DNA from: Fimbriimonadaceae bacterium | GTDB lineage: Bacteria > Armatimonadota > Fimbriimonadia > Fimbriimonadales > Fimbriimonadaceae | Direction: 5' to 3' | NCBI GenBank assembly: GCA_023957775.1 | Contig: JAMLGR010000017.1 | Coordinates: 1 to 64,000, forward strand | DNA: 64,000 bases | Shown here: positions 7,688 through 11,578 of the stretch, piece after piece | Position numbering within the stretch: the first letter of the stretch is position 1 | Layout: each line of letters opens with the position of its first letter | Notes under the pieces: model-generated | The model's database searches: none | Seen by the model: only the letters and a program-made list of their open reading frames with translations | What the model was told of the DNA's origin: nothing | Program-made: the position numbers and the translations under genes

Positions 7688-9043
7688 ATGAGCGATTCCC
7701 CCGACGGTCTTCCCGGCACGATGTCTCGCCGACTCAACGTCGCCATGATGGGAGCGGGCAGCTTCTTCACCGGCTCCATCCTTCGGGACGTGATGCTGAT
7801 CCCCGGAATCCCGGGCGGCGAACTGCGCCTGGTCGATGTCGATTCCGACCGCCTCGGACTCACCCACAAGTGGATCGTGAAGCTCGCGGAAACCCTCGGA
7901 GTGGCCGACCGATGGACCGTCCGCTCCTCGACCGACCGCAAGGAGCTTCTTCCGGGAACGGATTACATCGTGAACAGCATCGAGGTGAGCGGCCTCGAGT
8001 GTGTCCGGCACGACAACGACATTCCCCTCGAGTTCGGTGTGAGCCAGTGCATCGGCGACACGATCGGGCCGGGCGGCCTGTTCAAAGCCCTGCGTACGGT
8101 CCCGGTCTGGTTGGACATCCTCCGGGATGCGGAGCGACTGTGCCCGAACGCCCAGGTGCTGAACTACACGAACCCGATGAACATCCTTTGCCTCGCCGCG
8201 GCACGGGCGAGTTCGATGCGGGTCGTGGGGCTGTGCCACTCGGTCCAAGGCACGTCGAGAATGCTGGCCGGCTTCGCGGGGGTTCCCTATGAACAGGTGC
8301 GGTGGGAGTGCGCGGGCATCAACCACCTTGCGTGGTTCACGAGCTTCGACGGGCCCGAGGGCGACCTCTACCCCATGCTCCTCCGCGTTGCGGACGATCC
8401 CGAGTCCGAGTTCGCGCAGAAGGAGAAGGTCCGCATCGACATGATGCGTGCGTTCGGCGCGTTCATCACGGAAAGCAGCGGCCACCTCAGCGAGTACCTT
8501 CCCTACTACCGCAAGCGCAAGGAGATCCTCGAGACCTATGCCACGCCGTGCTACGGGGGCGAGGAAGGCTTCTACGCCGCGAACTGGCCGACTTGGCGCG
8601 AGGGCCAGGACACCAAGCGCGCGGCCCAGATCGAAGGTGCCGAACCGCTCGACGTGAAGCGCAGCCTGGAGTACGGAGCGTGGATCATCGAAGCGATCGA
8701 GAAGGACTCGCCCGTCGTGATCCACGGCAACGTGCCCAACGAAGGGTCCATCACGAACCTGCCTTCCGACGGGTGCGTCGAGGTCGCGTGCCTGGTGGAC
8801 AGAAACGGCGTGCAGCCCACGCGCTACGGGGCGCTTCCCAAGCCGATGGCGGGAATCTGCGATTCGAACATGCGCATGTTCGACGTGGCGGCCGAGGCGT
8901 GCATCCACCGCTCGAAGGAAGCGGCGTTCCACGCGTTGCTGCTGGATCCCCTCACGGCCGCGGTGTGCAGCCCGGTCGAGATCCGCGAGATGACCCGGCG
9001 CCTGTTCGAAGCCGAAGCCGAGTACCTACCGGGCTTCGCCTAG
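7688..9043 (+). CDS. glycoside hydrolase family 4 (alpha-galactosidase/alpha-glucosidase-like)
   Basis: 451-residue GH4 enzyme, which uses NAD+ and a divalent metal to cleave glycosides by an oxidation-elimination route. The Rossmann start is LNVAMMGAGSFFTGSILRD at about residues 16-34. Family motifs follow: VNSIEVSG, QCIGDTIGPGG, NYTNPMNILC, the metal-binding Cys in LCHSVQGT, and the His in GINHLAWF. The CHS metal motif suits the alpha-galactosidase/alpha-glucosidase branch; exact sugar unknown. ATG at 7688 is used; an internal ATG at 7721 would also keep the domain. No transporter or sugar regulator is adjacent. Confidence 0.92.
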   Translation: MSDSPDGLPGTMSRRLNVAMMGAGSFFTGSILRDVMLIPGIPGGELRLVDVDSDRLGLTHKWIVKLAETLGVADRWTVRSSTDRKELLPGTDYIVNSIEVSGLECVRHDNDIPLEFGVSQCIGDTIGPGGLFKALRTVPVWLDILRDAERLCPNAQVLNYTNPMNILCLAAARASSMRVVGLCHSVQGTSRMLAGFAGVPYEQVRWECAGINHLAWFTSFDGPEGDLYPMLLRVADDPESEFAQKEKVRIDMMRAFGAFITESSGHLSEYLPYYRKRKEILETYATPCYGGEEGFYAANWPTWREGQDTKRAAQIEGAEPLDVKRSLEYGAWIIEAIEKDSPVVIHGNVPNEGSITNLPSDGCVEVACLVDRNGVQPTRYGALPKPMAGICDSNMRMFDVAAEACIHRSKEAAFHALLLDPLTAAVCSPVEIREMTRRLFEAEAEYLPGFA

Positions 9044-9076: not shown

Positions 9077-9110
9077 GCTCGGGATGACCGGGGAGCTCGG
9101 GATGACCGGG
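9077..9110 (+). repeat. two-copy 18-bp direct repeat
   Basis: GCTCGGGATGACCGGGGA followed by a second copy. It fills the convergent gap between the GH4 gene and the PDZ-protein gene. No terminator hairpin is obvious. Confidence 0.7.
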
Positions 9111-9112
9111 CG

Positions 9113-10111
9113 CTACTCTTCCTCAAGGCGGCCGACGCGGACCATCATCAGGACCGTGCTGGCGCCGCGGCGGACGCGCATGGGGATGATCGAGCCGACT
9201 TCCTGCTCGAAAACGAGCTTCGCGAAGTCGATTTGGTTCTTGACGGGCGAACCGTTGAGTTGGAAGATGATGTCGCCGGGGCGCAGGCCGGCCATGTTCG
9301 CGCTGCTTCCCGCTTGGACCATCTCCACGACCGCACCGGCCCCGGGCGCATCGCGGCAGAACACGCCGAGCGAGGGGTGGATCACCTCGTGCGAGGGCGA
9401 GCGGAAGCCGTCGAGGACGCGGCGAAGCGCGACGGGCCCGACGGTGTAGGCGACGGTCATTGCCCCCGGACCGAAGCGGTTCTCCTGTTGGCGCGTCTTG
9501 GGCAGAAGATCGCGCGAGAGGCCCCCAAACCCAGCTTGCTGAGGCGACTCGTCGATCTGCTCGAGCGTCGCGTTCAGCGTGCCCAGCAGTTCGCCGTTCA
9601 GCGTGAAGATCAAGGCGCCGCCCACGCTGTCCGCAGGCGCCTCGAAACGGATTTCGTTGAGCTGCACGACCCGGCGCGAGGGATTGACCACACCCACCCG
9701 ATCGGCGGAGACGAACTCGGCGCGGATCGGGCCGCTGCCCAAGGCGGCCAACAAGCGCTCGCCCGGACGGGCATCGCGCCTTGAGGCGCTCACCGGGTTG
9801 GCGCCAGACTTCCAGCCCTCGGCTCCGAGCAGCACGAGCTGCGAGGGGTCGTCGCTGGAGAGCACTTTGAGCACGATCACGGCTCCCGTCGACGCGCGAC
9901 CTCGAACCTGGGTGCCCGCGACGGACTCCTTGTGCGCCACGAACAGTCCGCCGGAGTCGATCAGCGCGGCGGCGCCCCGCTCCTGATCGCCATCGAGCAA
10001 GACGACGATCGAAGGAGCGATGCGGCTCCAGGCCGACGCCTCCGTGGGGGAGAGCTGCGTGGAGAGGCCCGACAGGACCACCACGGCGAGACTAACTGCC
10101 GATGAGAACAT
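9113..10111 (-). CDS. degenerate trypsin-like/PDZ protein
   Basis: 332 residues. Residues 1-25 (MFSSAVSLAVVVLSGLSTQL) are a signal peptide or anchor. A HtrA-like trypsin fold follows (about 30-215), then a PDZ domain (about 245-325: GLRPGDIIFQLNGSPV). The catalytic elements look lost: where HtrA has TNNHVV this has AHKESV, and GNSGGP is replaced by ADSVGGAL with an extra residue. It is therefore probably a sensor or chaperone rather than a protease. It is the third gene after an ECF sigma factor and anti-sigma factor, with a 20-base overlap, which suggests a periplasmic sensor for that pathway. The ATG at 10111 is chosen for its signal peptide. Confidence 0.8.
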   Translation of the reverse strand: MFSSAVSLAVVVLSGLSTQLSPTEASAWSRIAPSIVVLLDGDQERGAAALIDSGGLFVAHKESVAGTQVRGRASTGAVIVLKVLSSDDPSQLVLLGAEGWKSGANPVSASRRDARPGERLLAALGSGPIRAEFVSADRVGVVNPSRRVVQLNEIRFEAPADSVGGALIFTLNGELLGTLNATLEQIDESPQQAGFGGLSRDLLPKTRQQENRFGPGAMTVAYTVGPVALRRVLDGFRSPSHEVIHPSLGVFCRDAPGAGAVVEMVQAGSSANMAGLRPGDIIFQLNGSPVKNQIDFAKLVFEQEVGSIIPMRVRRGASTVLMMVRVGRLEEE

Positions 10112-10907
10112 TGCTGGGTGAGGCGACCTCCGTCGCGCGGTAGGCGCCCGTCGCGGCGTCGCGTACGGGTTGGATGACGACAATGCCTTCCTCGGGTCGG
10201 GAGGACTCTATGGCTGCTGGTGCTGCGGCCTCGGACAACGCCGTCCCCGTGTCGAACGGCGAGGGCTTGTCCGCGCCGCCGCCGAATCCGCCGCCGCCTG
10301 CGGGTGCAGGAGCCATCGTGCTCGCCGCGAGGACGCGCGGCCCCTCGTCCTTCATCGCGATCTTCTCGGCTGTACGATCTGCGCGCACCACCGACTCCCT
10401 GACGGGGCGGGGAGCGGACTTCTTCTCGGCGACCAGCGTGGGAGAGGACGTCTTCTTGGGCTCGGGCGCCGACTCCACATGCATGCCCTCGGGGTTCGGC
10501 GCGGGAGCCGTCCAACGAGGAAGGTCGATCTCGGGTGTCGATTTCGACGCACCGGAGGTAGACGCGACGAGGACGGGAGCGGCCGGGGGAGCGGAACGCA
10601 GGGCCAAGGCCATGAACGCATAGGCCCCGAGCGCGGCCGCGGGCACGAAGAGCCAACGCCAATCGAACCGGCCCGACCTCTTCTCCAGACCCCGGCGAAG
10701 GATCTCTTCGCGCAGGCGATCGGAGGAGAGCTGGTGGTCCATCGCCGGGCTCATTTCGCGAAGCCCCGCACGCATGGCCCGGTACGTCTCCAACGAGGCG
10801 CGCACCTCGGGATCGGTCTGGGCAAGCCGTTCGATCCGGGTGGCAAGCTCGGCATCGACGTCGCCAAAGGCGACCTGGGCAATCTGGTCATCGAGTCGTT
10901 TGTTCAT
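10092..10907 (-). CDS. anti-sigma factor-like membrane protein
   Basis: 271 residues encoded immediately after the ECF sigma gene (ATGA overlap). Residues 1-75 are a helical cytoplasmic domain with no Cys, so it is not a zinc-binding ZAS type. A transmembrane helix follows at about 85-105 (WLFVPAAALGAYAFMALALR), then a long Pro/Ala/Ser-rich, low-complexity domain on the far side with GGGGFGGG. This layout matches single-pass anti-sigma factors that hold the sigma factor at the membrane. No specific family signature is visible, so the role is inferred from position and topology. Confidence 0.75.
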   Translation of the reverse strand: MNKRLDDQIAQVAFGDVDAELATRIERLAQTDPEVRASLETYRAMRAGLREMSPAMDHQLSSDRLREEILRRGLEKRSGRFDWRWLFVPAAALGAYAFMALALRSAPPAAPVLVASTSGASKSTPEIDLPRWTAPAPNPEGMHVESAPEPKKTSSPTLVAEKKSAPRPVRESVVRADRTAEKIAMKDEGPRVLAASTMAPAPAGGGGFGGGADKPSPFDTGTALSEAAAPAAIESSRPEEGIVVIQPVRDAATGAYRATEVASPSNVLIGS

Positions 10908-11524
10908 CGGGGGTCCTCCGCCAGAAGCGGGGCAATGCGGTCTTTCAAAGCGCGTCGGGCGCGGAGCACGCGGAGCTTGGCGCCGCCCACGGTGCATCCG
11001 AGGATTTGGGCAATCTCGGGATACTCGCGCTCCTCGATGTCGCGCAGGACGATCACGGAGCGATGATGCGCCGGGAGCGCCCCGAGCGCACGTCGGATGG
11101 CGTCGCGCATATCGTCGATTTCGAGGTTGTGGACGGGATCCTCGTTCTCGATCGTGGTCATCCACGTGAGGGAGCCGGCCGCCTCCTGCTGCTCGAGGGC
11201 GCCTCGGCGCTGGTGCATGCGGGCCTGATCGGTGCAAAGGTTCGTCACGATTCGAAGGAGCCACGTCGTGAACTTGGCTTCATCGCGGTATCGGCCGAGG
11301 TTCTGATAGGCGCGCACGAAGGCCTCCTGCACAATATCTTCGGCATCGTCGCGCCGTGGGACCATCTGGTAGGCGAATCGGTACACCAGCGTGCGATGTC
11401 GCTCGTAGAGCTTCTCGAACGCCGAGTAGTCGCCATCCCGCGCTCTACCAACGAGCGCCTCGTCGCTGTCCCGGTCCATTCCTTGCGCCAGGGATCTACC
11501 CGTTGCCGTGATCGTGAATTCCAT
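10904..11524 (-). CDS. ECF (RpoE-type) RNA polymerase sigma factor
   Basis: 206-residue extracytoplasmic-function sigma factor. Region 2 (about 40-105) has FEKLYERHRTLVYRFAYQMV, the DAEDIVQEAFVRAY core and TTWLLRIVTNLCTD. Region 4 (about 145-200) has LPAHHRSVIVLRDIEEREY and the helix-turn-helix YPEIAQILGCTVGGAKLRV. It heads an operon with the anti-sigma gene (ATGA overlap) and the PDZ gene. A GAAAC-N16-CGTC element 30-54 bases upstream suggests it activates itself. A second ATG at 11479 is an alternative start. Confidence 0.95.
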   Translation of the reverse strand: MEFTITATGRSLAQGMDRDSDEALVGRARDGDYSAFEKLYERHRTLVYRFAYQMVPRRDDAEDIVQEAFVRAYQNLGRYRDEAKFTTWLLRIVTNLCTDQARMHQRRGALEQQEAAGSLTWMTTIENEDPVHNLEIDDMRDAIRRALGALPAHHRSVIVLRDIEEREYPEIAQILGCTVGGAKLRVLRARRALKDRIAPLLAEDPR

Positions 11525-11553
11525 CGGTGATCGACTCCGTCGTCACTGGCTAT

Positions 11554-11578
11554 GACGGGGCATCCGGCTCACGGTTTC
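11554..11578 (-). promoter_or_regulatory. ECF-type promoter of the sigma operon (GAAAC-N16-CGTC)
   Basis: Minus-strand GAAAC at 11578-11574, a 16-base spacer and CGTC at 11557-11554, the classic form of promoters read by ECF sigma factors such as SigW. It would start transcription near 11546, about 22 bases before the sigma ATG. Suggests positive autoregulation; this is inference from the motif. Confidence 0.6.

Follow-up and report, generated by a model that had tools for sequence, protein, structure and literature searches.

We report a three-gene operon from the Armatimonadota in which the genes of an ECF sigma factor and a single-pass anti-sigma factor are followed by one encoding a protein that has the fold of the HtrA serine proteases and lacks their catalytic triad. 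We read this arrangement as an old envelope-stress switch of the Armatimonadota in which the pseudoprotease would act as a non-catalytic co-regulator of the anti-sigma factor, and we give that reading a probability of roughly 0.6; the dead protease would probably work as a sensor or clamp on the anti-sigma factor, not as a protease. The operon lies in a 64,000-nucleotide stretch of DNA (the window; positions 1 to 64,000 of contig JAMLGR010000017.1) from the 3.5 Mb draft genome of a Fimbriimonadaceae bacterium, and comprises the following features:

11554..11578, minus strand: predicted ECF promoter, autoregulatory, GAAAC-N16-CGTC; 29 bases separate it from the sigma ATG
10904..11524, minus strand: ECF sigma factor, 206 aa, regions 2 and 4, start at 11524
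10092..10907, minus strand: single-pass anti-sigma factor, 271 aa, with a zinc-less class I-like anti-sigma domain
10092..10111, minus strand: overlap of the anti-sigma gene end and the pseudoprotease gene start, 20 bases (exactly 20 in 61 of 81 loci)
9113..10111, minus strand: pseudoprotease of 332 aa with HtrA fold and a single PDZ domain at the C-terminus, predicted to be exported, ATG at 10111 and stop at 9113

The three ORFs, their common strand, and the overlaps of 4 bases (ATGA, between the sigma and anti-sigma genes) and 20 bases, all proposed by the first-pass annotation, were confirmed from the sequence. The sigma factor has regions 2 and 4 only, as defines the ECF group, with Pfam matches to Sigma70_r2 (E 1.1e-21) and Sigma70_r4_2 (E 3.4e-13) and an NCBIfam match to the sigma70-ECF superfamily, all over cut-off. 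Past the operon, the intergenic stretch at 9078-9107 of the window holds two close copies of GGTCATCCCGAG, and is followed by a convergent gene that ends at 9043.

In Pfam the third protein is matched by PDZ models only, with no match to the trypsin model or to MucB_RseB; its predicted fold is instead that of HtrA. The AlphaFold2 model (pLDDT 90.2) matches HtrA1, PepD, DegS, MucD and DegP over residues 21-332 with VIA Z of about 20-25 (24.7 to PepD Rv0983, about 23 to DegS and MucD), HtrA1 of M. tuberculosis (Rv1223) being among the closest solved structures, and a profile built from 71 relatives aligns with DegS at E 2e-24 across residues 22-327. The protein has the HtrA arrangement of a trypsin-like domain followed by a PDZ domain, and is without the His-Asp-Ser triad and GNSGG(P/A) loop that define S1C. 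The domain and the residues found at the catalytic positions are:

9140..9376, minus strand: PDZ domain, residues 246-324 (Pfam PDZ_2, 3.5e-8, over cut-off)
9926..9928, minus strand: E62, at the catalytic His position by alignment with intact HtrAs of the same class
9839..9841, minus strand: Q91, at the catalytic Asp position by alignment (Q in 50 of 84 sequences; D in 9, mostly of family f2)
9623..9625, minus strand: V163, at the catalytic Ser position by alignment, DSVGGA replacing GNSGGP

None of the 84 aligned third-protein sequences has His in the His column, neither GxSGG nor TNxHV occurs in any of the 71 aligned relatives, and the Ser position is occupied in the relatives mostly by V, I, L, M or F. 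The loss of the catalytic His and of the GNSGGP loop, first suspected from the letters of the window, was confirmed by alignment both there and throughout the family; structure prediction, a check suggested by the first-pass annotation, did not refute its reading, since model and alignment together give an HtrA fold with the triad absent at the expected positions. By alignment and predicted fold, the third protein is an HtrA-fold pseudoprotease. Read from the ATG at 10111, its N-terminus is hydrophobic and without a basic n-region, so that its export and anchoring are uncertain. A scan of the contig collection with this protein returned one match, through PDZ only, in an unrelated organism.

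Class-wide, a search with the third protein matched 109 of 113 genomes, some through PDZ alone. The sigma gene, the anti-sigma region and the pseudoprotease gene follow one another in order in all 79 readable loci of families f1, f2 and f4, out of 82 that were read (the other three are interrupted by contig ends or unread sequence; at L075 the automatically chosen anti-sigma frame is doubtful). A wider search added 16 loci in which a degenerate HtrA gene is preceded, at a distance of under 1 kb, by an ECF sigma gene, namely 11 of 12 in the sister family f3 (the twelfth being cut at a contig start), four in f19 and one in f13, the last two being families outside the class. In total the three-gene set is intact in all of the approximately 95 readable loci; the search for the set in related genomes, suggested by the first-pass annotation, found the third gene linked at every complete homologous locus that was read. 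Three true HtrAs recovered by the wider search have no adjoining sigma gene. The pseudoproteases of f3, f19 and f13 have Glu or Asp in place of His and Gly or Asn in place of Asp, while Ser is lost in most f3 members and retained in f19 and f13; because His is missing in every sigma-linked member, its loss is old. In a FastTree phylogeny with weakly supported deep branches, the active HtrAs form a single clade (support 1.0) apart from the sigma-linked proteins.

The anti-sigma factor contains no Cys and has no Pfam match. Its AlphaFold2 model has N-terminal helices and a transmembrane helix at residues 84-104; Foldseek matches of this model are mostly to MucA, ChrR, RslA and RsiW, consistent but weak (E about 1 or worse), a profile matches RslA (3hug) and DdvA weakly (E 0.5-0.7), and NCBIfam assigns a putative anti-sigmaE at E 0.0066. 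In the class I anti-sigma domain (ASDI) an N-terminal helical domain is often followed by a transmembrane helix, and the zinc motif is optional (PMC7406223). Homologues of the window protein sit likewise between the sigma gene and the third gene. HxxxCxxC occurs in four f2 members and in outgroup anti-sigma factors of the same operon place, and the f13 protein in that place matches zf-HC2 over cut-off; the motif in the outgroup suggests that the window protein descends from such zinc-binding forms and has lost their zinc motif, so that its earlier description as lacking zinc Cys stands, though as a derived state.

In the anti-sigma factor the helices on the cytoplasmic side, the transmembrane helix and the C-terminal 30 residues are conserved, and the linker of 130 residues is variable and predicted to be disordered. 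Conservation and the model together delimit one further feature:

10095..10187, minus strand: C-terminal beta-hairpin and tail, residues 241-271, candidate docking peptide

Majority-residue frequency is 0.46-0.52 in the tail versus 0.22 in the preceding linker, and the hairpin (residues 242-261) is predicted at a pLDDT of about 80-90. The tail consensus is V.I....D..TGA..A.EV.....VV.GG; the protein ends in GG in 56 of 69 sequences and in GS in the window, and by clade the C-terminus is V..GG in f1/f2, ..SF in f3 and ..VE in f19. An explanation of the conserved tail as a mere side effect of the overlapping genes was for the most part set aside, since the hairpin lies outside the overlap and ..GG is retained where the start codon has moved. 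A conserved C-terminus that is specific to each clade and stands beside a PDZ partner is likely, judged from alignment and model, to be a docking tail for the pseudoprotease; against docking, a carboxy-terminal -GG is atypical as a PDZ ligand. The ..SF ends of the f3 anti-sigma factors (L191-L202) resemble the Phe-ending C-termini of outer-membrane proteins that are read by DegS-type PDZ domains.

The form GAAAC-N16-CGTC, noticed upstream of the sigma gene by the first-pass annotation, is present at 11578-11554. Upstream of the sigma genes, G[A/T]AAC-N16-CGTC is the top dyad (GAAAC in 33 and GTAAC in 32 of 74 loci) and, with slight leniency, is found at 70 of the 74, versus 4 to 6 loci for the best dyad in shuffled sequence; it also lies near the sigma start in 9 of 11 f3 loci. 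Among the 23 sigma-70 genes of the same genome, only that of the window has the motif upstream. Self-activation of the operon is well supported by this conserved promoter, from which the sigma factor would transcribe its own genes. A genome scan with GAAAC-N16-CGTC had been suggested as a way to define the regulon: the motif does recur at the homologous sigma genes, but the scan alone cannot define a regulon, as the own genome has 48 matches versus 32 for the reversed control, and the GTAAC form falls below its control.

In 22 of 30 genomes the motif also stands 27-90 bases upstream of the start of genes for a family of secreted, Pro/Gly-rich proteins (background 0.5% per interval scanned). 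These proteins occur in 77 of the 85 family genomes and belong to no Pfam family, and we infer that their promoter motif is read by the sigma factor of the window rather than by another. The member in the own genome (L178:1561-2739; G000 contig 10:90985-92163) has a low-complexity Pro/Gly-rich half and a conserved Tyr/Trp-rich half. The motif was also seen upstream of a second secreted family (L229:1911-2519; G000 contig 19:80310-80918) in 6 of 17 relatives; at L229 only about 8 bases separate its end from the ATG, which makes a leaderless transcript possible. Separately, GAAAC-N16-CGTC lies just upstream of the start of a porin (L219:1067-1999; G000 contig 12, near 114206; Porin_O_P over cut-off). 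A motif at the active HtrA gene on contig 20 was rejected as a target, being inside coding sequence; comparison showed that the -35 variant of targets (GAAAC or GTAAC) does not track that of the sigma gene; and a recurrent GTAAC match with nearly unchanged spacer in four genomes is presumably a conserved stretch of 16S rRNA.

Elsewhere in the same genome, on the minus strand of L335 (432-4128; G000 contig 20:52500-58500), there is a separate operon-like set of an ECF sigma factor, a MucB_RseB-domain protein (Pfam 26 bits against a cut-off of 22.3) and an HtrA that has two PDZ domains and an intact triad. A short gap after this sigma gene may hold an anti-sigma gene, and the set resembles algU-mucA-mucB-mucD. 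With an operon of RseB type and active HtrA on contig 20, the operon of the window is a second system in which the HtrA slot holds a dead protein. Another active HtrA is encoded at L336, and L338 encodes an RseP-type M50 protease that carries a PDZ domain, so that candidate proteases for cleavage of the anti-sigma factor exist outside the operon.

These observations can be assembled into a working model. The ECF sigma factor would transcribe the operon it belongs to along with a few secreted-protein genes, as the strongly conserved promoter indicates, and the anti-sigma factor, to judge from its fold and gene order, would hold it at the inner membrane. If exported, the pseudoprotease would act outside the cytoplasm, non-catalytically, taking the role that RseB/MucB has in other systems. 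PDZ domains bind their partners by the 3-4 residues at the C-terminus, and RseB and MucB shield RseA and MucA (PMC8103513, PMC7400510). By such means the PDZ domain or the dead substrate groove of the pseudoprotease might hold the hairpin and free C-terminus of the anti-sigma factor and shield it until an envelope signal competes for the tail site, upon which an active HtrA and the RseP-type site-2 protease encoded elsewhere could cut it. The co-regulator reading draws on the HtrA fold with its dead triad, the strict linkage, the conserved promoter and the shared target family; on an anti-sigma end conserved upon a long variable linker, as expected of a bait; on a C-terminus specific to each clade, as expected for a PDZ partner; and on the presence in the genome of active HtrAs (L335, L336) and an RseP homologue with a PDZ domain. 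The linkage and the conserved tail are what suggest, in particular, that the dead protease is a sensor. It is conceivable, though we propose it only tentatively, that the pseudo-HtrA replaces sensors of both DegS and RseB type, its PDZ domain reading the anti-sigma C-terminus as a built-in ligand and envelope signals, for example exposed C-termini of unassembled outer-membrane proteins, activating the sigma factor by competition; if so, the F-ending f3 tails would mimic the ends of outer-membrane proteins.

The pseudoprotease might instead be an output of the pathway and no sensor: a chaperone or holdase of the periplasm, induced by the sigma factor and linked to the other two genes through co-transcription alone. 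Proteins of the HtrA fold can act as chaperones, envelope quality-control proteins are encoded in other sigma operons, and the promoter makes this operon self-induced; we nonetheless consider an output role unlikely, given the place of the gene right after that of the anti-sigma factor, usually with the 20-base overlap and kept in nearly all genomes, and given a conserved anti-sigma tail that needs a partner. Neither MucD nor mycobacterial HtrA, both co-transcribed proteases, is known to act as a sensor, which counts against a sensor role here. Quite improbable, in our judgement, is a role like that of MamO, in which the pseudoprotease would activate an active HtrA, or recruit one, so that it serves as the site-1 protease of the anti-sigma factor: MamO, a degenerate HtrA, is required for MamE-dependent proteolysis (PMC4794232) and active HtrAs are encoded in the same genome, but the operon contains no active HtrA gene and mixed oligomers are hypothetical in this setting. 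That the protein is an active protease whose active site is displaced or unusual we regard as very improbable indeed. Some f19 and f13 members do retain Ser at its position and S162 adjoins that position in the window protein; S162 is, however, not conserved, the Ser position is aliphatic in most f1/f2 members, and all sigma-linked members lack His and most lack Asp.

A co-regulator of this kind would depart from the systems it most resembles. Like E. coli rpoE-rseA-rseB with DegS and P. aeruginosa algU-mucA-mucB with AlgW/MucD, the operon encodes an ECF sigma factor, a single-pass anti-sigma factor and a protein that is periplasmic there and predicted to be so here, and those pathways also involve the HtrA/PDZ fold and the reading of C-terminal peptides (PMC8103513, PMC7400510); in both, however, the HtrAs are proteolytically active and shielding without catalysis falls to RseB/MucB, whose fold is unrelated, whereas the sole third gene of the window operon encodes an HtrA fold that has itself lost catalysis. 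In the sigE / rseA-htrA-tatB region of M. tuberculosis an HtrA gene likewise directly follows the anti-sigma gene, but the product of that htrA is a serine protease that is essential, and sigE and rseA are not transcribed together (PMC10027907). MamO of magnetotactic bacteria, likewise a pseudoprotease of the HtrA family, has a degenerate triad and acts without catalysis (PMC4794232); it differs in serving magnetite formation, binding metal (a surface di-histidine site marks the MamO type) and working with MamE, outside any sigma-factor operon. The first-pass annotation had contrasted this locus with known pathways, which place active DegS- or HtrA-like proteases or RseB-like sensors in this slot, and the contrast is borne out by the dead HtrA of the window. 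Our search of an open-access library found no HtrA pseudoprotease described in a sigma pathway, and this speaks, if weakly, for novelty.

Textbook accounts of regulated proteolysis draw on envelope-stress sigma pathways, in which the HtrA sensors are active. A pseudo-HtrA that holds the sensor slot in several families, inside and outside a single class of the phylum, and next to a separate operon of RseB type with active HtrA in the same genome, would mean that this fold is able to sense and gate without cutting, and the operon supplies a short testable peptide and a defined promoter.
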